NCBI GenBank assembly: GCA_026416455.1
Contig: JAOAFE010000001.1
Location: 186,001 to 250,000, forward strand
Reading direction: 5' to 3'
Source of the DNA: Syntrophales bacterium
GTDB taxonomy: Bacteria > Desulfobacterota > Syntrophia > Syntrophales > UBA8958
Length of the DNA stretch: 64,000 nt
The notes beneath the pieces were generated by a model. It saw only the letters and a list, made by a program, of their open reading frames with translations. It had not been told where the DNA came from and made no database searches. How positions within the stretch are numbered: the first letter of the stretch is position 1; every line of letters begins with the position of its first letter. Shown here piece by piece: positions 15,759-26,033 of this stretch. The position numbers and the translations under genes are program-made.

Positions 15759-16043
15759 ATGAGGTTCTGGCGACGGCCCTTAGACATGCCGCCCGTTAAG
15801 TTGAGTCGGGGTGAGGTCATCATTTTGCCCGAGAGATGTAAAGGTTGTGGTTTCTGTATTGCTTATTGTCCTCGGGGTGTTCTCGCCCTCTCTGAGGAAT
15901 TTAACAAAAAGGGCTACCATCCTCCTTACGTGAAGGAGGCGGATAAATGTGTGAATTGTCATTTTTGTGAAATAATATGCCCGGAGTTCGCCATTTACTC
16001 GATAAATTTGTTTGAGAAAGAAGGAGAAAAGGCGGGTGCGTGA
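15759..16043 (+). CDS. korD: 2-oxoacid:ferredoxin oxidoreductase delta subunit (2[4Fe-4S] ferredoxin)
   Basis: 94 residues with two [4Fe-4S] motifs, CKGCGFCIAYCPRG from Cys27 and CVNCHFCEIICPE from Cys64. This is the electron-transfer subunit of four-subunit 2-oxoacid oxidoreductases. The next three genes encode the alpha, beta and gamma subunits in the order D-A-B-C known for 2-oxoglutarate:ferredoxin oxidoreductases. ATG 15759 has a GGGAGACGAGA ribosome site; ATG 15786 is an alternative. The cluster would reduce an external ferredoxin while making an acyl-CoA. Confidence 0.88.
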   Translation: MRFWRRPLDMPPVKLSRGEVIILPERCKGCGFCIAYCPRGVLALSEEFNKKGYHPPYVKEADKCVNCHFCEIICPEFAIYSINLFEKEGEKAGA

Positions 16044-17202
16044 TAAAGCAGTAGAAAAAGGCATCTATTTCATGAACGGGGATCATGCCTGCTGCGAGGG
16101 TGCCATTGCGGCGGGGTGTCGTTTTTTTGCCGGCTACCCCATTACCCCTGCGACAGAGGTGGCGGAGAGAATGTCGATACGTCTGCCCCAGGTGGGGGGA
16201 ATATATATACAAATGGAAGACGAAATTGCATCGATGGCCGCCATTTTAGGAGCCAGTTGGGGTGGAGTGAAGGCCATGACGAGTACCTCCGGACCGGGAT
16301 TTTCTCTCATGATGGAAAATATTGGTTTGGGGGTATGCACCGAGACGCCCTGTGTCATATGCAATGTCCAAAGGGCAGGTCCCAGCACAGGGCTTCCTAC
16401 TAATGTAGCACAAGGTGACATGATGCAGGCCCGATGGGGTTCTCATGGTCACTATGAGATTATTGCTCTGTCTCCCTCCAGTCCGCAAGAGATGTTCGAT
16501 ATGACTATTCTGGCGTTTAACTTAAGTGAAGAATACCGGATTCCCGTTCTTATTATGGCCGATGAAGTAGTGGGTCACATGAATGAGAGGGTGGTGATTC
16601 CGGACATAGAGGAAATAGAAATTGTGAACCGAGCCAAGCCTCATGCTCCCCCCGAGGGGTATTTGCCTTACCGACCGGGGCCCAATGGGGTGCCTATCTT
16701 ACCTAATTGTGGGGATGGTTATAGGATCCATGTAACGGGTCTTACCCACGATGAACGCGGTTATCCGGTGATGACGGCCGATGCTCAGGCCCAGATGGTG
16801 GAGCATTTGGTAAACAAAATCGTCCTGAATCGGGAAAAGATAATTAAAACGACGTCTTTTTATCTTGACGATGCGGAGGTCGTGGTCATCTCTTATGGAA
16901 TAACGTTCCGATCGGCTCGCAGTGCCGTGGAGCAAATAAGAGAAGCCGGCGTCAGGGCAGGTTTGCTCAAGCTCGATACGGTTTGGCCCTTCCCCGAAGA
17001 GTTGGTCAGGTCTCTGGCGAGGAATGTGAAAGCCCTTGTGGTAGCAGAGATAAATTTAGGCCAGATGGTAAGGGAAGTGGAAAGGTGTGCAGCGGGAAGA
17101 TGTCGTGTTCACCTCGTACCCCATCATGGCGGGGCAGTCATAAGGCCAGAACGGATAATTGAGGGAATAAGAGCCGCTTTGAAGAGGAAGAGGAACAGAT
17201 GA
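16036..17202 (+). CDS. korA: 2-oxoacid:ferredoxin oxidoreductase alpha subunit
   Basis: 388 residues from GTG 16036, which is nine bases after AGGAG and overlaps the end of korD by eight bases; the in-frame ATG at 16012 would give a longer overlap and a charged extension. The protein has the pyrimidine-binding (PYR) domain of the PFOR family, with FFAGYPITPATEVAE near residue 33 and TSTSGPGFSLM near 83, followed by the transketolase C-like domain II. Conserved KorA features favour 2-oxoglutarate as substrate, but 2-ketoisovalerate-type enzymes have the same layout, so the substrate remains inference. Confidence 0.9.
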   Translation: MRDKAVEKGIYFMNGDHACCEGAIAAGCRFFAGYPITPATEVAERMSIRLPQVGGIYIQMEDEIASMAAILGASWGGVKAMTSTSGPGFSLMMENIGLGVCTETPCVICNVQRAGPSTGLPTNVAQGDMMQARWGSHGHYEIIALSPSSPQEMFDMTILAFNLSEEYRIPVLIMADEVVGHMNERVVIPDIEEIEIVNRAKPHAPPEGYLPYRPGPNGVPILPNCGDGYRIHVTGLTHDERGYPVMTADAQAQMVEHLVNKIVLNREKIIKTTSFYLDDAEVVVISYGITFRSARSAVEQIREAGVRAGLLKLDTVWPFPEELVRSLARNVKALVVAEINLGQMVREVERCAAGRCRVHLVPHHGGAVIRPERIIEGIRAALKRKRNR

Positions 17203-18065
17203 GAGGTAAAAAAAGAGAGCTTCCAGGCCACCCTATGGACCGTTTGTTAAGGGTGGATCGCATACCCCACATTTGGTGTTCCGGTTGTGGTATCGGGACG
17301 ATCTTTGGTGGTGTACTCGCTGCCATACAGAAGTTAGACATCGATTTGAACAAGTTGGCCATGGTTTCCGGTATCGGATGCACAGGTCGAATGGCGGGTT
17401 ATATTAAGGTAGATTCATTCCACACTACCCACGGTCGGGCTATTCCCTTTGCCACGGGCCTCAAACTGGCCCGTCCGGATATCAAAGTCATCGTTGCCTC
17501 CGGTGATGGAGACCTCTTTGCCATTGGTGGTAATCATCTGATTCACGCCGCCCGCAGGAATATTGATATGACGGTCATATGTGTTAATAATCTGAATTAC
17601 GGGATGACGGGCGGTCAACAGGCTCCCAGTACGCCACTGGGGTTTAAAACGACTACTACCCCTGAAGGATCGCCAGAAGAACCTTTTAACTTTTGCTATC
17701 TGGCAGCTGCCTGTGGGGCTGTTTACGTGGCCCGGTGGACGGCTCTTCATATAAGACTCCTTACTAACTCGATTGCCGAAGCCCTGCAAAAAAAAGGATT
17801 TACTTTCATAGAGATCCTGTGTCCTTGCCCGTCCGTCTTTGGTCGCAGAAACAAGATGGGTAATGCGTTAGAAACGCTTAAATTGTATCACGATCGATCG
17901 GTTATAAAAAACGAAATAGATCCCAAGGAAGCAGGCATCGACTTGTTTGGCGAGATCGTAGTGGGTAAGTTCGTAGACCGCGAGCGTCCTACCTTCATTG
18001 ATTATTACCGGTCGATTGTATGTCATGAAACTCCGGAAGATAACGTCATCAGGATAGCAAGATGA
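17199..18065 (+). CDS. korB: 2-oxoacid:ferredoxin oxidoreductase beta subunit (TPP-binding)
   Basis: 288 residues. It binds thiamine diphosphate: GDGDLFAIGGNHLIHA followed by NNLNYGMTGGQ is the GDG-N motif that ligates Mg-TPP. N-terminal CSGCGIG and the later CPCP carry cysteines typical of the family. Start and stop overlap both neighbours by four bases (ATGA), so korA, korB and korC are translationally coupled. With the alpha subunit it decarboxylates the oxoacid and makes the CoA thioester. Confidence 0.92.
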   Translation: MRGKKRELPGHPMDRLLRVDRIPHIWCSGCGIGTIFGGVLAAIQKLDIDLNKLAMVSGIGCTGRMAGYIKVDSFHTTHGRAIPFATGLKLARPDIKVIVASGDGDLFAIGGNHLIHAARRNIDMTVICVNNLNYGMTGGQQAPSTPLGFKTTTTPEGSPEEPFNFCYLAAACGAVYVARWTALHIRLLTNSIAEALQKKGFTFIEILCPCPSVFGRRNKMGNALETLKLYHDRSVIKNEIDPKEAGIDLFGEIVVGKFVDRERPTFIDYYRSIVCHETPEDNVIRIAR

Positions 18066-18634
18066 AAAAGAGAGAACGGCGAATTTTTTTCACCGGTTTT
18101 GGTGGACAGGGTATTGTTATGGCTGGTGATATTTTGGGGAGGGCCTCTGCCATTTATGATGGGAAGCACGCCACAATGACGCAAAACTATGGACCGGAGG
18201 CCAGGGGTGGCGCTTGCTCCAGCCAGGTTATAATAAGTGATGAGGAAATATTGTATCCATATGTAGATAGGCCCGAAATCCTCATCTGCATGAGTCAGGA
18301 AGGGTACACGAAGCATGTTAAAAACCTCGTCGATGACGGTACGCTGATTTGGGATGAAGATCTCGTGCGCCCGGGTAAGGGGAATAAGTCTTGGAACATC
18401 CTGCGGGTTCCTGCCACCCGTATTGCCGAGGAGATGGGACACAAGATGATGGCCAATATCGTCATGCTCGGTTTCTTAACCGCTGTAACCGGGGTCGCTT
18501 CGGCCGATGCCGTGCGTCAAGCGATTAAGGACTCTGTGCCACCAGCCACGGTAGAGGCAAATATGAAGGCCTTTGAACGAGGTATGGAATACGGGCAGGC
18601 GGTACTCAAAAGTCGTTCTAAGGGCAACGGATGA
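18062..18634 (+). CDS. korC: 2-oxoacid:ferredoxin oxidoreductase gamma subunit
   Basis: 190 residues, typical size. The N-terminus TGFGGQGIVMAGDILGRA and the following NYGPEARGGAC are signatures of the POR gamma (CoA-handling) domain. It completes the KorDABC set. It overlaps korB by four bases and the following large flavoprotein gene by four bases, so the flavoprotein is made together with the oxidoreductase and not merely nearby. Confidence 0.93.
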   Translation: MKKRERRIFFTGFGGQGIVMAGDILGRASAIYDGKHATMTQNYGPEARGGACSSQVIISDEEILYPYVDRPEILICMSQEGYTKHVKNLVDDGTLIWDEDLVRPGKGNKSWNILRVPATRIAEEMGHKMMANIVMLGFLTAVTGVASADAVRQAIKDSVPPATVEANMKAFERGMEYGQAVLKSRSKGNG

Positions 18635-21600
18635 TAAATAATTCACCGAATAAGATTCCTCAAGCGGCTGTTCTTCTGCTCGGAGCCGGCTACGGAGCCA
18701 TTAAAGCGGCGCAAGATATGGCCGAAGCAGGGAAACCCTTGATTTGGGTGACGCGGGCTCCTCACTTTTTAGAAGTGCCTTTGGGAAAGGCAGCCTTCAC
18801 GGAATGGCCAGAGGATTTAAACTTCCAGTTTAGACCTCTATATCTAAGAGTTACGCGCCATCCTTTGGTAACGGCTTTGACGCGCACGCATGTGGAGTCC
18901 ATCGTAAGGGAAGGTGAAGGCTACCGAGTGACCTTAATACAAGAGTCTCCATTTGTCGATTACGATCTATGTACAGGTTGTGCACGCTGCATGGAGGTAT
19001 GTCCTCTCAAAGATACAACGTCGCCACCCCTCAAGAGAACTCCCCCCTACTGTCCTTCCCGGGCTCTTGATCTTGACAAAAGAAAGAAGGCTCCGTGTCG
19101 GGAGGCGTGCCCCCTAGGGGTGAATGCCCAGGCGTATATTGCCTTAATCGCAGCCGGGAGGTTTTCCGAGGCGCTGGAAGTTATCAGAAGAGATAATCCT
19201 CTACCCGGGATATGTGGGAGGGTATGCCATCATCCCTGTGAGGTGGCCTGCCGCCGGGCGGATGTAGACGCGGCGGTGGCCATTTGTGAACTAAAAAGGT
19301 TTGCCGCCGATTGGGAACTTAAAGCAGGAAAGAGGCCAACTCTTCCACCTGCAGGTCATAAAAGACAAGAAAGGGTAGCGATAGTGGGCTCCGGTCCCGC
19401 TGGGCTTTCGGCGGCTTATTTTCTCGCGCGGGAAGGCTTTAATGTTACCGTTTTCGAAAAGGAGTCCCAACTGGGCGGTATGTTAAGAATCGGTATCAAC
19501 GCCTTTCGTCTGCCGAGAGATATATTGGAAATGGAGATTAAGGCGATTGAAGAATTAGGAGTCGAATTTAAGACGTCCTGTCCTGTAACGAACGTGGAAG
19601 AGCTCTTTGAAGAAGGTTATAAAGCCGTTATCCTTTGTCTCGGTGCCCATCGTGACCTCAAACTGGGCATACCTGGCGAGAATTTGCCCCAAGTTATGGG
19701 GGCCGTGGAGATGCTGAAACAGGTAAATATGGGTAGTTTGAAGAAGCTGGTAGGCAGGGTGGCCGTAATCGGAGGAGGAAATTCTGCCATCGATGCGGCT
19801 CGGGCGGCGCTACGTCTTGGGGCAGAGGAGGTTACTATTTTTTATCGTCGCGAAAAGGGGGATATGCCGGCCCTGGCGAAAGAGATACGGGAAGCGGAGG
19901 AAGAGGGAGTTAATTTTACCTTCCGCACGGCACCCGTGTCGATAAGAGGTACGTCTACCGTCGAGGCCGTTGAATTCATAAGGATGGAAATGGGAGAACC
20001 GGATGAAAGCGGGCGGAGGAGACCGATTCCCGTCGAGGGATCGCAGTTTCTGTCGCAAGCTGATTACGTAATTGTCGCCATTGGTCAGGAGACAGACTGG
20101 TCTTCTTTGGGCGGCGAGTTCCGGTGGAAGGATGACCGGGGGCGTATTGTATGCCTTAATGGTATGATGACTGGTCGGCCTGGCCTGTTCGCCGCGGGAG
20201 ATGTCGTGACCGGCCCGGGAACGGTAGTTGAGTCTATGGCGCAGGGGAGGAAAGCGGCTGCGGATGTAGCTGATTATCTTTTGGGTATCGAGGTCAGGGA
20301 AAATGAGGTCACATCTTTTCCCGGGGCCGATTATAAAGAAGTTCCGAAGGTAACAGAAAAACTCGAGAGGGTCGAGGCGCGTTCACGGGAACCACATCTG
20401 CGAGTCAAGGACTTTTCTGAAATTTCTCACGGCTTGAGTGAAGATGAGGCGATTTACGAGGCCAAAAGATGTATTCAATGTGCCGTCTGCTGCGAGTGCT
20501 TGGCTTGTGAGGAGGTTTGTCGCTCCATTGGGGCGATCGATCATACCCGCCTGCCCCGTACTATTTCTTTTTACGCCCCGGCTATAGTCGTGGCAAGGGA
20601 AGAGGAACTTGCGGATAAAAAGATGCTCAGCGAAAAGCAGGTGCATTATATAGGTAGCTTCAACGAGGCTACGGATATTGTTAACGTTCTGATGGCCGGT
20701 TCGGCGGCGGCAGGTAGAGCCATAATGGACACCCCCTCCTTCGGAGAAAGGAAAAAAGGGAGTAGGAGAACTCGCCTTTTCCAAGGCGATGAAAGAAAGA
20801 TAGGGGTTTTTATCTGCACTTGTAATGGCACGATGGCGCCCACTTCTGTGTTGGAGAATTTAACACATTTGGCGAGCCTTATGCCGGGGGTAGAAAAAAG
20901 TGCTCTCGTTTTTTCTGCTTGTCATCCCCAAGGGGCGGAGCAAATAGCCCGAGAAGTAAGAAAAAATAAGCTGGGAAGAAACATTTTGCTTTCCTGCGCC
21001 TGTTGCCCTCTCGAATTCCAGTGTATATCCTGTAATGACCAACGCAACCGAGTGCGATTGCATCTTTTCAATAGGTTAGGACTCGACCGTAGCCGATTTG
21101 AGATGGTCAACATGCGGGATGGTTTGGGTTACGGTATGTGGTCGGATAATAGAATGTTGGCTCGTGCACGGGACTTATTGAGGGAATCCTATTTTCGCCT
21201 CCAATTTCTCGGTCCTCTCCAGGAAGGTCAAACGAGTTTGGGTAGATCTGTTTTGATCCTCGGTGGTTCAGAGGTGGGAATAATATGTGCCCGTATTCTT
21301 GACCTCCAGGGATTTCGTGTTCGCCTCGTCCATCGGTGTCGTATAAAAGGTGAAGAATTGCCATCCGACGTGGCCCGGCGGTCTTTAACGGAGGTTGAGG
21401 GTCAAGGTGTGGAAAATATATCCGAAGCGATCGTATGGGGTATTAAAGGTCATCTGGGTAATTTCGAAACCCGTCTCGAGATAGAAGGAAGAAAGAGAGT
21501 GCTCAACTCAGATATTGTATGTCTTACGGATTTGCACCTTCTACCTCTGGCCATCCCCGAAGGCACTTTCGGCTTGAAAAAATTTTATCGCTACAATTTT

Positions 21601-21999
21601 GCCTTCTTCAATACACCTCAAATAGGGCTTTACCGCGTTATGCCGCGCACTTTAAAAAGGGTGAGTGCAGGCCAAGCAGGAGCAGCTTTGGCTGCTCATG
21701 TCGCGTCGGCTGCCGCTGAGGCTTATCTGAAGGATCATGAATTGAGTCCGAGGGTAGACGAAACGCGATGCCGTGGCTGCGGTAGATGTGTAGAAATATG
21801 TCCTTTTAGGGCTGTAACTTTCAAAGCCAATAGTTTTGGTTTTTACACCGCTCAGGTCCTTCGCTATAACTGTGTGGGCTGCGGTGGATGTGTGGGTAGA
21901 TGCCCCGTAACGGCGATGGATATGCCTTATTTTTCCAATCGATTCCTCGATGATATCGTGCCCTTTATCTTCGAGGGGGGAAAAGAGCCGTGTCGGTAA
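18631..21999 (+). CDS. GltD/NfnB-like flavoprotein fused to HdrA-like N-terminal domain and ferredoxins
   Basis: 1122 residues. Order of parts: a Rossmann-like start (LLLGAGYGAIKAAQD near 16) without a complete flavin domain; a [4Fe-4S] motif CTGCARCMEVCP at Cys114; a Fer4_20 domain from Cys156 (CREACPLGVNAQAY) as in glutamate synthase small subunits; FAD and NAD(P)H Rossmann folds (IVGSGPAGLSAAYF near 251, VIGGGNSAIDAARA near 379); a cysteine cluster from Cys614; a thioredoxin-like HdrA N-terminal unit (IGVFICTCNG near 723, then LLSCACCPLEFQC); and two terminal [4Fe-4S] motifs (CRGCGRCVEICP, CVGCGGCVGRCP). It could exchange electrons between NAD(P)H and the Hdr proteins that follow. The architecture is a composite and its partner is inference. 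It overlaps korC by four bases and the next gene by ten. Confidence 0.85.
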   Translation: MINNSPNKIPQAAVLLLGAGYGAIKAAQDMAEAGKPLIWVTRAPHFLEVPLGKAAFTEWPEDLNFQFRPLYLRVTRHPLVTALTRTHVESIVREGEGYRVTLIQESPFVDYDLCTGCARCMEVCPLKDTTSPPLKRTPPYCPSRALDLDKRKKAPCREACPLGVNAQAYIALIAAGRFSEALEVIRRDNPLPGICGRVCHHPCEVACRRADVDAAVAICELKRFAADWELKAGKRPTLPPAGHKRQERVAIVGSGPAGLSAAYFLAREGFNVTVFEKESQLGGMLRIGINAFRLPRDILEMEIKAIEELGVEFKTSCPVTNVEELFEEGYKAVILCLGAHRDLKLGIPGENLPQVMGAVEMLKQVNMGSLKKLVGRVAVIGGGNSAIDAARAALRLGAEEVTIFYRREKGDMPALAKEIREAEEEGVNFTFRTAPVSIRGTSTVEAVEFIRMEMGEPDESGRRRPIPVEGSQFLSQADYVIVAIGQETDWSSLGGEFRWKDDRGRIVCLNGMMTGRPGLFAAGDVVTGPGTVVESMAQGRKAAADVADYLLGIEVRENEVTSFPGADYKEVPKVTEKLERVEARSREPHLRVKDFSEISHGLSEDEAIYEAKRCIQCAVCCECLACEEVCRSIGAIDHTRLPRTISFYAPAIVVAREEELADKKMLSEKQVHYIGSFNEATDIVNVLMAGSAAAGRAIMDTPSFGERKKGSRRTRLFQGDERKIGVFICTCNGTMAPTSVLENLTHLASLMPGVEKSALVFSACHPQGAEQIAREVRKNKLGRNILLSCACCPLEFQCISCNDQRNRVRLHLFNRLGLDRSRFEMVNMRDGLGYGMWSDNRMLARARDLLRESYFRLQFLGPLQEGQTSLGRSVLILGGSEVGIICARILDLQGFRVRLVHRCRIKGEELPSDVARRSLTEVEGQGVENISEAIVWGIKGHLGNFETRLEIEGRKRVLNSDIVCLTDLHLLPLAIPEGTFGLKKFYRYNFAFFNTPQIGLYRVMPRTLKRVSAGQAGAALAAHVASAAAEAYLKDHELSPRVDETRCRGCGRCVEICPFRAVTFKANSFGFYTAQVLRYNCVGCGGCVGRCPVTAMDMPYFSNRFLDDIVPFIFEGGKEPCR

Positions 22000-22424
22000 A
22001 AATCCTCACCATCTGCTGCAACTGGAGCCCTTGGGCCTGTCTGAATCAGGCACAGATGGCAGGTTTTGTTTTGCCCGAGAATCTGAAGGTCATCCGTGTC
22101 ATGTGTATAGGCCGCATTAATCAGGCCCTCATTTTGAAGGCCTTCGAGTTCGGGGCGGATGGAGTGCTCCTACTTGAATGCCATGATGAAGACTGTCGCT
22201 ACGGGCCGGGACCGGCTGTAGGACACGGAAATGTGCAAAGAGTAAGAAAACTGCTCGATCTCTTGGGTATCGATCAACATCGGTTGGTTGAAAAGAGCTT
22301 TGGCGCCCATGAAAAGACGGAACTTGCACAGGCCATAGAGGATTTTGCTGATACCATAGAGCGCCTAGGACCCATCACTCAAAAGGAAAGAAAGGCTGAT
22401 CATTATGGTGGATGTGAGACTTGA
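21990..22424 (+). CDS. MvhD/FlpD-like hydrogenase iron-sulfur subunit
   Basis: 144 residues from GTG 21990, with a G-rich ribosome site (AGGGGGG) about ten bases upstream. Family features are the N-terminal CCNWSPWACLNQAQ, VIRVMCIGRI, and ECHDEDCRYGPG, matching the delta subunit that passes electrons to HdrA in methanogens (there with one [2Fe-2S] cluster). No hydrogenase genes are nearby, so here the donor is more likely the flavoprotein encoded just before it, with which it overlaps by ten bases. It also overlaps the HdrCB-like gene by 20 bases. Confidence 0.88.
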   Translation: MSVKILTICCNWSPWACLNQAQMAGFVLPENLKVIRVMCIGRINQALILKAFEFGADGVLLLECHDEDCRYGPGPAVGHGNVQRVRKLLDLLGIDQHRLVEKSFGAHEKTELAQAIEDFADTIERLGPITQKERKADHYGGCET

Positions 22425-23568
22425 TGGGCTCGTTAAGAACAAAGGACTTTTCCAGTGCCTAGAATGCGGTAAATGTGCGACCTCCTGTCCGAGGTGTATG
22501 TCTGGGAAAGAGTATTCACCCCGACTCCTGGCCCATAAGGTAATAGCAGAAAGAGAAGACGAAGCCTTTATAGAAAATGCCGTCTGGGAGTGTCTCACCT
22601 GTGATCTATGCAGTGAGCGATGCCCTTCTGGGGTCGATTTCAGCGGATTTGTGATAGAAATGAGGACTCTTCTGGCGGAGACGAAGGGATTAAAAGGCTA
22701 TCGGGCCCACGATGGGGCTGTTCACTCTTGGATGAGAATGATGACCGTCCCGGAACTCAAACAGAATCGCTTAGGATGGATTAATGAAGATCTGAAGGTG
22801 AGCTCGACGGGAGAAATAGCCTACTTCGTGGGTTGTGCACCCTATTTTGACGTCTTCTTTTCAGGTATAGAGGTAAACACCCTGGCCATTTCTAGAGACA
22901 GTGTTCGAATTCTTAATTTCTTCGATGTGGAGCCCGTAGTATTGGCCGATGAGCGATGTTGCGGACATGATCTCCTTTGCACGGGCGATCGAAAGAATTT
23001 CGAAATTCTATGTCGCCTTAACTACGAGGCGTTTAAGGATGCAGGGGTAAAGGAGATCGTCTTTTCGTGTCCCGAATGTTATTACGTTTGGAAAGAGTTC
23101 ATGCCACAGGTGTGTAAGGGATTCGATTTGAAAGTAACCCTTCTTTTGGACCTTATCGAGCGGGAGGTAAACCGAGGGGGTATGACGTTTTCCCCCTTTA
23201 GTCGGCGGGTGACTTATCAAGACCCTTGTCGCCTGGCGAGAATGGTGGATAAGGTAGAGGTGCCTCGTAAACTGCTCAGAATGATACCCCAATTGAGACT
23301 CGTAGAGATGGAACACTTTGGACACGGTGCCGTATGTTGCGGCAACAGCGCTTTCATTAACTGTGATGCTTATTCGAAATTTATTCAGATTAAAAGACTG
23401 AAGGAAGCGCGTGCGACCAAGGCACAGATGATGGTTACTTCCTGTCCCAAATGCATGATTCACCTAACCTGCGCCATGAGAGACAAGGTGAGGGGGGGAG
23501 AATGGAATATGGAATTGGTGGATATACACACAATCCTCGCCCGCGAAATGGGCTGGTTTAAAGGATGA
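22405..23568 (+). CDS. HdrD-like (HdrC-HdrB fusion) heterodisulfide reductase-type subunit
   Basis: 387 residues. The first 90 are HdrC-like with two [4Fe-4S] motifs (CLECGKCATSCPRC and CLTCDLCSERCPSG). The rest holds two CCG domains: DERCCGHD with FSCPECYYVW, then YQDPCRLAR, AVCCGNSAF and SCPKCMIH. In HdrB the two CCG domains carry the non-cubane [4Fe-4S] clusters that split a disulfide. No membrane segment is visible, so the protein is cytosolic. It overlaps the MvhD-like gene by 20 bases. The substrate could be a disulfide or another two-electron acceptor; nothing in the sequence fixes this. Confidence 0.87.
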   Translation: MVDVRLDGLVKNKGLFQCLECGKCATSCPRCMSGKEYSPRLLAHKVIAEREDEAFIENAVWECLTCDLCSERCPSGVDFSGFVIEMRTLLAETKGLKGYRAHDGAVHSWMRMMTVPELKQNRLGWINEDLKVSSTGEIAYFVGCAPYFDVFFSGIEVNTLAISRDSVRILNFFDVEPVVLADERCCGHDLLCTGDRKNFEILCRLNYEAFKDAGVKEIVFSCPECYYVWKEFMPQVCKGFDLKVTLLLDLIEREVNRGGMTFSPFSRRVTYQDPCRLARMVDKVEVPRKLLRMIPQLRLVEMEHFGHGAVCCGNSAFINCDAYSKFIQIKRLKEARATKAQMMVTSCPKCMIHLTCAMRDKVRGGEWNMELVDIHTILAREMGWFKG

Positions 23569-23597: not shown

Positions 23598-26033
23598 ATG
23601 GCAAAAAAGGCGATGAGCGATAGTCCACGCATAGGGGTATACGTTTGTAAATGCGGTTCCAATATTGGGGCTACAGTGGATTGTGCGGCCGTGGCAGAAT
23701 ATGCATCCACTCTCCCCGATGTTGTACATGCTGTCTACCAGAGTTATACTTGCTCAGAGCCCGGGCAGGAACAGATTAAGAAAGATATCAAAGAGTTCAA
23801 CTTAAATCGAATCGTCGTTGCCTCCTGTTCGCCGCGCTTGCACGAACCTACCTTTAGGAATTGTCTGAAAGAAGGGGGTCTCAATCCGTATCTTTTAGAG
23901 ATGGCGAATATTCGTGAACAATGCTCTTGGGTCCATGCCTTGGAACCAGAGGCGGCGACGAAAAAAGCCAAAGATTTAGTACGGGCAGCGGTGGCAAGAA
24001 CATCCCGGCTTGAGGAAAAGACGGAATTAGAAGTTCCCGTGAATCAATCAACTCTCGTCATCGGAGGGGGAGTGGCAGGTATTCAAGCCGCCCTCGATTT
24101 GGCTGATGCCGGTCATAAAGTTATAATCGTGGAGAAGAATCCCAGCATTGGCGGGATTATGGCCCAACTCGATAAAACCTATCCCACGATGGATTGTTCT
24201 ATTTGAATATTGGGGCCGAAAATGGCGGATGCCGGTCGGCATCCTAACATTACACTCCTTACCATGAGTGAGATAAAGGAGATCACAGGCTTCGTAGGTA
24301 ACTTTCGGGTACGGGTCCTTAAACGGGCAAGATATGTCATAGAAAAAGAATGTACGGCCTGCGGCGAATGCGCGAAGGTGTGTCCGGTGGTTGTCCCCGA
24401 TGAGTTCAACATGGGATTGAGCACCCGTCGGGCTATCTATTCTCCCTTTCCTCAAGCTGTGCCCGCGGCCTATGTCGTGGATATAAATCATTGCCTCGGG
24501 CATAACCCCATCATCTGCGGTCGCTGTCTGGAAGTATGCCAAAGACGTTGTATAGATTTCTCCATGAACGATGAGGAGTTGACCTTTGAGGTAGGAACGA
24601 TCATCGTAGCTACGGGAGCGCAGCCGATTGACCCTACTCATCTAGATGAATACGGTTATGGACGCTTTGAAAACGTCCTTACGAGCATGGAGTTGGAAAG
24701 ATTGATCAATGCAGGCGGACCAACGAAAGGCGAGGTGATTCGCCTTTCCGACCACAAACGCCCCCAATCGGTGGCTTTCATCCAGTGCGTTGGTTCCCGG
24801 TCCACTCACCGCGGTCATCCTTACTGTTCCAATATCTGTTGCATGAACACGATAAAGAGTGCCATCATGCTCAAAGAGCATTATCCTGAGATGGAGGTCA
24901 AGGTTTTCTACATCGATATTCGTGCCTTTGGGAAGGGTTTTGAAGACCTCTTTCGCCGGAGCAAAGCCTTAGGAGTGAGGTACATAAGGGGGCTGCCTGG
25001 CTCTATTCATGAGAATGCGGAGACTAAAGATCTAATACTTACGGTAGAAAACACGGCCACGAATGCTTTGGAAAAACATGTGGCCGAGCTTGTGGTTCTC
25101 TCGATTGGCTTAGAACCACCAGAGGATATAAAGGTGCTTCAGGAAATGTTGGCCCTCCAAAGGAACGCCGATGGATTCTATCTAGAGGCCCATCCTAAAC
25201 TTCAACCGGTCGACAGTGCTTCTCGAGGCATATTCTTTGCTGGATGTGCGGAGGGACCGAAAGACATTAAGGATTCCGTGACCCAGGCATCCGCTGCAGC
25301 TGCCCGGGCCATGAGACTCATGGCTCCGGGTGTGATTAAGGTAGAAGCCCTCACGGCTATTGTCGACGAGTCAAAATGTACGGCTTGCGGATTATGCGCC
25401 CGTGTTTGCCCTTATCGGGCGATCGTAGTGGACCCGAAAACAAAGATGCCCGCGAAGGTAACCCAGGCCGCTTGTGCTGGATGTGGGAACTGTGCGGCTG
25501 AATGTCCTCAAGATGCCATTGAGATGAGTCATTTTACCGACGAGCAGATAGAATCCCAGATAGATGCCATCCTCGCGGAGGATCCGATGGAAAAGGTATT
25601 AGTCTTTGCCTGTAATTGGTGTTCCTATGCTGGGGCAGATTATGCCGGCGTGTCTCGTCTCATTTATCCCGCTACTAATCGCTTAATTAGGACTATGTGC
25701 TCGGCGAGGGTAAGTGAAAAGTTTGTCTGGCGAGCCTTTGCTCGGGGAGCACCGGTAGTGCTCGTCTCCGGATGCCATATCGGTGATTGTCATTATATTA
25801 ATGCCAATCATTGGACGAAGAGGCGGGTGGAGCGGATGTGGAAAAAGATGGAGCGCTTAGGTTTAAGAAGGGAGCGCTTGGGTCTTGAATGGGTAAGTGC
25901 GGCGGAAGGCATGAGGTTTCAGCAAATTATGACGGAAATGGAGCGGATTCGCTCGACCGTGACACCGGAAGAGGTGAGGCGGACAATGGAAATCTTGGCC
26001 CAGGAGAAGGTCACGGGAGGTAACCAGAAATAG
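23598..26033 (+). CDS. hdrA: selenocysteine-containing HdrA fused to MvhD (UGA 24204 read through)
   Basis: One gene of 811 residues with an in-frame TGA at 24204-24206 read as selenocysteine 203. Both sides are in the same frame and together give a continuous HdrA: N-terminal [16 protein letters not shown] motif [13 protein letters not shown], then [16 protein letters not shown], where relatives have Cys at the U position. Next come [12 protein letters not shown] near 254, the HdrA cysteine cluster ([13 protein letters not shown]), two ferredoxin motifs (near 594 and 628) and a C-terminal MvhD domain from about 665 ([22 protein letters not shown]). HdrA is the flavin-based bifurcation subunit. 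A SECIS-type hairpin follows the TGA. An AAGGAG ribosome site precedes ATG 23598. Gene finders will split this into two ORFs (23598-24206 and 24210-26033). Confidence 0.9.
24204..24251 (+). promoter_or_regulatory. bacterial SECIS element and Sec codon of hdrA
   Basis: The TGA at 24204-24206 is followed after 20 bases by a perfect 7-bp stem, GGATGCC (24227-24233) with GGCATCC (24238-24244), closed by the tetraloop GGTC. The loop GGUC is the same as in the E. coli fdhF SECIS, where the G and U contact SelB. A short lower helix is possible (AATG 24221-24224 with CATT 24248-24251). The distance from UGA to the apical loop (27 bases) is within the known bacterial range of roughly 16-37. Confidence 0.85.

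Follow-up and report, generated by a model that had tools for sequence, protein, structure and literature searches.

Selenocysteine (Sec)-containing HdrA proteins have been described in archaea, deltaproteobacteria and clostridia since 2006 (Zhang et al. 2006, PMC1794560), and both HdrA1 and HdrA2 of Desulfobacterium autotrophicum contain Sec (PMC2702500). A 2026 review notes Sec for the NF040770 (HdrA2) family, in the form of a CxxU motif (PMC13188914). Archaeal Sec-HdrA genes are reported to be mis-annotated by gene callers (PMC12054007). The hdrA2 gene reported here lies in the window, the 64,000-nucleotide stretch of Syntrophales DNA that was analysed, and is well supported as a further example of Sec-HdrA, in print since at least 2006. 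Judging from the accessible parts of those sources, it resembles the bacterial Sec-HdrA genes (PMC1794560, PMC2702500) in carrying Sec and in lying near MvhD/FrhD-type genes, and it differs from them in being fused to MvhD and in standing behind korABC, HdrL-like, MvhD and HdrD-like genes. With NF040770 HdrA2, as outlined in the available text on that family, it shares an above-cut-off profile match and an MvhD extension. Archaeal and Asgard Sec-HdrA share the family and the Sec residue, but in the available portion of the Asgard report the SECIS element is placed in the 3' UTR (PMC11227280), whereas that of the window gene lies just after the UGA. Methanosarcina acetivorans HdrA2 is described, in the material available, as working with F420 and CoM-S-S-CoB, whereas the partners of the window protein are proposed from the neighbouring genes. 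The methanogen HdrA chains 5odc, 8rvu, 9sfi and 7bkb stop short of the MvhD part, unlike the window protein.

The hdrA2 gene occupies positions 23598..26033 of the forward strand and, with read-through of a TGA, encodes a single 811-residue HdrA-MvhD fusion selenoprotein. Two open reading frames, 23598-24206 (202 aa) and 24210-26033, share one frame, as the preliminary description had stated, and the TGA at 24204..24206 (+), residue 203 of 811, is the sole interruption of 23598-26033; the stop codon of the gene is TAG. An ORF listing in which UGA was treated as a stop cut the gene in two, which is the mis-annotation by standard tools that had been predicted. The product matches the NF040770 profile over residues 11-792 with 1215.1 bits (cut-off 1100) and has an MvhD/FlpD domain at its C-terminus (residues 667-782, 144.4 bits). 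The TGA stands in for the second Cys of a DCSxC motif. Of the 35 Cys columns of the protein, 29 keep Cys throughout the 104 aligned rows, a count from which the Sec column is absent since it was masked. Other in-frame TGAs in the window (48547, 51960, 55583 and 20383) were judged by eye to mark the end of a neighbouring gene or a chance frame.

A bacterial-type SECIS hairpin with a 7-bp stem and a GGUC loop was located 20 nt after the TGA, at 24227..24244 (+), where the preliminary description had proposed it. The two arms, GGAUGCC (24227-24233) and GGCAUCC (24238-24244), enclose the loop at 24234-24237. RNAfold gave the identical helix (z -2.39), and 4 of 200 shuffled sequences were equally stable. 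For a sequence that encodes ADAGRHP with the local codon usage, and with G-U pairs allowed, a 7-pair stem would arise by chance with p ~0.029, and a 7-pair stem together with a GGTC loop with p 0.005. The hairpin of this single sequence alone is therefore modest evidence. It is the comparative evidence, with TGA in 80 of 80 relatives and a hairpin that accompanies Sec and not Cys in close relatives, that takes it far beyond chance. We take the GGUC loop to resemble that of E. coli fdhF, and the window stem lacks the bulged U known from that element, which counts against the match. A search of the window with Infernal returned no Rfam family above its gathering score, so this check, which had been suggested for the hairpin region, lent no support. 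A covariance model of the hairpin was also run against the window's own genome. It scored 67.1 bits at the HdrA site, 13.3 bits on the reverse strand of that site and 12.9 bits at one other match, and no further site of exactly this hairpin type scored well in that genome.

A scan of GTDB genomes yielded 176 relatives, and the best 80 of these by similarity to the query (L010-L089) were fetched. TGA was found at codon 203 in all 80 of the fetched homologues. Altogether, 105 distinct loci were compared, 96 with TGA and 9 with Cys at this position; six duplicates, the paralogue or neighbour pieces without the motif (L100-L102, L104-L106) and L135, which has a TGA and too little upstream DNA, were left out. 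These 9 Cys homologues, together with the Cys of 5odc, 8rvu and 7bkb, bear out the earlier claim that the TGA occupies a Cys position of HdrA. The tree, from which L103 was dropped, requires two changes between Sec and Cys. An HdrA match at an E value of 1e-150 or better was found in 113 of 198 genomes sampled from the window's phylum, and the close Cys homologues among the sampled genomes are uninterrupted genes. Sec-HdrA had been assigned to some methanogens and some deltaproteobacteria. This occurrence is indeed known, but the range was drawn too narrowly, as record titles in the tree table name 15 phyla, with 44 of the 104 rows carrying no group and with titles of metagenome-assembled genomes (MAGs) not proving origin. 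Five genomes of the window's own family or order (G157, G182, G030, G067 and G130) are without a close copy; two have no match at 1e-150 and three have only a 43-44% identical HdrA. The records nearest by identity include Desulfarculaceae, which may be read as loss or transfer. Separately, G000:C33:168297-173160 (L100-L104) holds a frame of 1475 codons that contains two HdrA parts and precedes MvhD. The DCSAC motif belongs to the first of these parts, and only the second gave a match to the N-terminal domain, an arrangement resembling the split described for ANME HdrAs.

The hairpin was compared across these loci. With G-U pairs counted, the 96 TGA loci form 7 stem pairs in 89 cases, 6 in 6 and 5 in 1, and the GGTC loop is present in 95 of the 96. 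The 9 Cys loci encode a similar peptide and form only 3-5 pairs, none of the nine reaching 6. One of them, L110, shares 72% identity with the window protein and falls inside its 13-row clade, and it has Cys and no hairpin. Among close relatives, the hairpin thus accompanies Sec and is missing where there is Cys. Within the stem, covariation was observed at column pair 32-39 of alignment A1 (65 of the 80 loci L010-L089 plus the window), which is CG in 30, UA in 29 and UG in 6 of 65 distinct rows. The covariation score of this pair was 0.156, compared to 0.083 +/- 0.010 for shuffled alignments, and none of 500 shuffles scored as high; slid controls gave 0.000-0.076. Two other measures were less extreme, the number of pairs changed on both sides being reached in 13 of 500 shuffles and the number of further pair types in 29 of 500. 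Pair 32-39 couples an Ala/Val codon at +9 with a synonymous Arg codon at +11, a coupling that is not explained by selection on the protein. Each side of the pair changed 21 times on the tree. Across 16 independent pairs, the partner differed in the same way in 12.5, in the opposite way in 0 and not at all in 3.5 (means; median p 0.00024). The codons at +8 (GAT), +10 (GGT) and +12 (CAT) are invariant in all 96 TGA loci, with no change on the tree, compared to 27-48 changes at each of ten other conserved Gly codons. In the Cys loci, GGT occurs at +10 in 1 of 9 and CAT at +12 in 9 of 9. The SECIS hairpin just past the UGA is under structural selection.

These comparisons bear on whether the locus could instead be two genes, or a case of programmed termination, that yields a 202-residue N-terminal protein with a restart at the TTG at 24210. 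There is indeed a TTG-started ORF at that position, and termination at UGA generally competes in part with Sec insertion. However, the break would fall inside one CxxC motif, between its two residues, the close Cys homologues run uninterrupted through it, and the hairpin shows both synonymous constraint and covariation. We consider this reading very improbable.

A second alternative is that another suppressor tRNA decodes UGA as Cys or Trp. Such recoding is found in a few bacteria. Against it, the upstream gene at 22405-23568 terminates with TGA, which shows that TGA does not generally code for an amino acid here, and close relatives have the hairpin only where they have UGA. Moreover, the genome (2.1 Mb in 44 contigs, 95.8% complete) encodes the whole Sec machinery that the preliminary description had asked for, each component above its family cut-off: tRNA-Sec (77.9 bits; ARAGORN anticodon tca, i.e. 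UCA), selA on the window's own contig (517.5 bits), selB (374.1 bits) and selD (382 bits). Decoding as Cys or Trp is on these grounds more improbable still than two genes. The same genome has three further TGA genes of selenoprotein type. Its selD has a TGA at a Sec-type site (G-U-ACK), an above-cut-off FdhA has a Sec-type TGA in HCARL-U-HSVTVAGL, and so does another FdhA-type match that scores under the family cut-off, in HQARI-U-HSPTVPAL (G000:C22:145062-147735; L140, L142-L144). The search also counted a TAA in this second match and divided it into pieces, so the gene may be broken or frame-shifted. Within the phylum, tRNA-Sec was detected in 180 of the 198 sampled genomes. It was found in 22 of 24 genomes with a listed TGA copy (>=60% identity) and in 7 of 9 with only Cys copies, the classes being taken from listings by stop count and G164, whose match misses the site, being omitted; since nearly all of the 198 genomes carry tRNA-Sec, this co-occurrence does not discriminate. 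Two genomes, G118 and G137, have a TGA-HdrA and no tRNA-Sec match, for which draft gaps or stricter filters are the likely cause.

A pseudogene or sequencing error, which might be suspected from one in-frame stop in a draft assembly, is in effect already refuted by the relatives, as the identical TGA is present in 80 of 80 other assemblies, 607 stop-free codons follow it, and the invariant Cys columns and the covarying hairpin are preserved. The preliminary conclusion of one 811-residue selenoprotein, rather than two genes or a pseudogene, is upheld by a TGA and hairpin conserved over about 100 loci and by the complete machinery. In the preferred reading, SelB:Sec-tRNA would be recruited by the hairpin 20 nt past the UGA and Sec would be inserted at residue 203; the product would be an HdrA of 811 residues with MvhD as its C-terminal domain. 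Sec insertion itself is what we infer from these data. The explanation as a whole, one selenoprotein gene with hairpin-directed Sec at residue 203 and an HdrA-MvhD product acting in an Hdr complex, we hold to be highly probable.

More distant HdrA genes were compared at 40 loci of 43-51% identity, 20 counted with TGA and 20 without. The motif was found in 28 of them, 15 with TGA and 13 with Cys, and the other 12 yielded none. None of the 15 distant TGA loci has a stem of the window type, as they form at most 4 pairs at the corresponding place. All 15 have another hairpin near the UGA, scoring 16-19 compared to at most 15 in the 13 Cys loci, and beginning 16-19 nt downstream of the first UGA base. 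Eight are of the type GGATGAC-GGA-GTCATCC, five of a GGATGGT type and two of other types. The loci with these other hairpins, which lie nearer the UGA and some of which have AGGT or AGGTTG loops, are L148, L149, L151, L153-L162, L164 and L165. Of the 13 distant Cys loci, 9 lack any 5-bp stem; as a counter-example, two of the 13 (L147 and L185) form 6 of the 7 pairs where the window has its stem. Because the scoring scheme was designed once the first results were known, the distant comparison is supporting evidence only. It suggests that several different SECIS solutions may have arisen at one Sec codon.

The codon preceding the UGA (24201..24203, +) is ATT in the window and ATA in 76 of the 96 close Sec loci, compared to ATA in 0 of the 9 Cys loci. 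Elsewhere in those stretches, ATA accounts for 120 of 821 Ile codons. The Ile codon at -1 changed 9 times on the tree, compared to 24 and 30 times for two other conserved Ile codons; one Gln codon likewise changed only 9 times. Against a signal at this position, the codon is ATT in the window, encodes Ala in the distant Sec loci and reads ATA at one distant Cys locus (L152). An AUA codon acting as a 5' context signal for UGA decoding is possible.

What Sec203 may do in the protein was considered from solved structures. Matches to methanogen HdrA chains fall between residues 3 and 661 of the window protein, and residue 203 aligns with Cys197 of 5odc, in agreement with the alignment check that had been proposed. 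The residue is Cys in 5odc, 8rvu and 7bkb and X in 9sfi, where it is probably Sec; our search for HdrA Sec197 or structure 9SFI in the literature found no paper. In the accessible part of the structural report, HdrA Cys197 is an iron-sulfur ligand donated in trans across the HdrA dimer (PMC9012536), and in that of a second study the N-terminal HdrA clusters are placed on the input path (PMC12350162). By its alignment to Cys197, the selenolate of Sec203 would sit on the cluster of the partner HdrA. The window protein retains the conserved N-terminal Cys set along with Sec203, and together these would be consistent with a symmetric homodimer. Our proposal, to which we give slightly less than an even chance, is that in this bacterial Sec-HdrA clade the Sec203 selenolate ligates the partner's N-terminal cluster, so that selenium would tune an electron-transfer cluster of a bifurcating enzyme instead of serving as a catalytic redox residue, and that UGA decoding would depend on the hairpin together with the conserved AUA that precedes the UGA. 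As a side observation, no DCSxC motif was seen in the translation of the HdrL-like gene at 18631-21999, so that this protein could in principle accept a Sec ligand from a neighbouring HdrA.

The genes around hdrA2 point to an Hdr complex. All lie on the forward strand. Directly upstream of the hdr genes are korABC-type 2-oxoacid:ferredoxin oxidoreductase genes (16012..18634), followed by a 1122-aa HdrL-like GltD/HdrA-part fusion (18631..21999; HdrA-like stretch at residues 723-903), a separate MvhD/FlpD subunit (21990..22424; Pfam FlpD, 116.7 bits) and an HdrD-like protein with 4Fe-4S and CCG domains (22405..23568; Pfam CCG and Fer4_8), a likely partner subunit. The window thus combines conserved Fe-S Cys residues in HdrA with adjacent HdrD-like and MvhD genes. 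Among 109 homologous loci, many of them incomplete, an HdrD match was found at 82, an MvhD match at 75, partly from HdrA's own C-terminus, and an HdrL-like match at 22. At Cys loci L128-L134, korB-korC adjoin HdrA instead. From this gene order we infer that HdrA would carry the FAD and form the core of a soluble Hdr complex, in which the HdrD-like, MvhD and HdrL-like proteins would be further subunits. Through flavin-based electron bifurcation or confurcation, the complex probably links the ferredoxin of the adjacent 2-oxoacid:ferredoxin oxidoreductase to NAD(P)H and to a disulfide or some other acceptor. Its electron donor and acceptor are guesses from the neighbouring genes.

Gene callers that treat UGA as a stop split this gene, and an energy-conserving complex may be overlooked in MAGs in the same way. 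In the matched sets of Sec and Cys loci, similar peptides are encoded with and without the hairpin, a clean evolutionary control for a bacterial SECIS. Should Sec203 prove to be an iron-sulfur ligand across subunits, the role of selenium in such a cluster could be studied in HdrA as a natural system.
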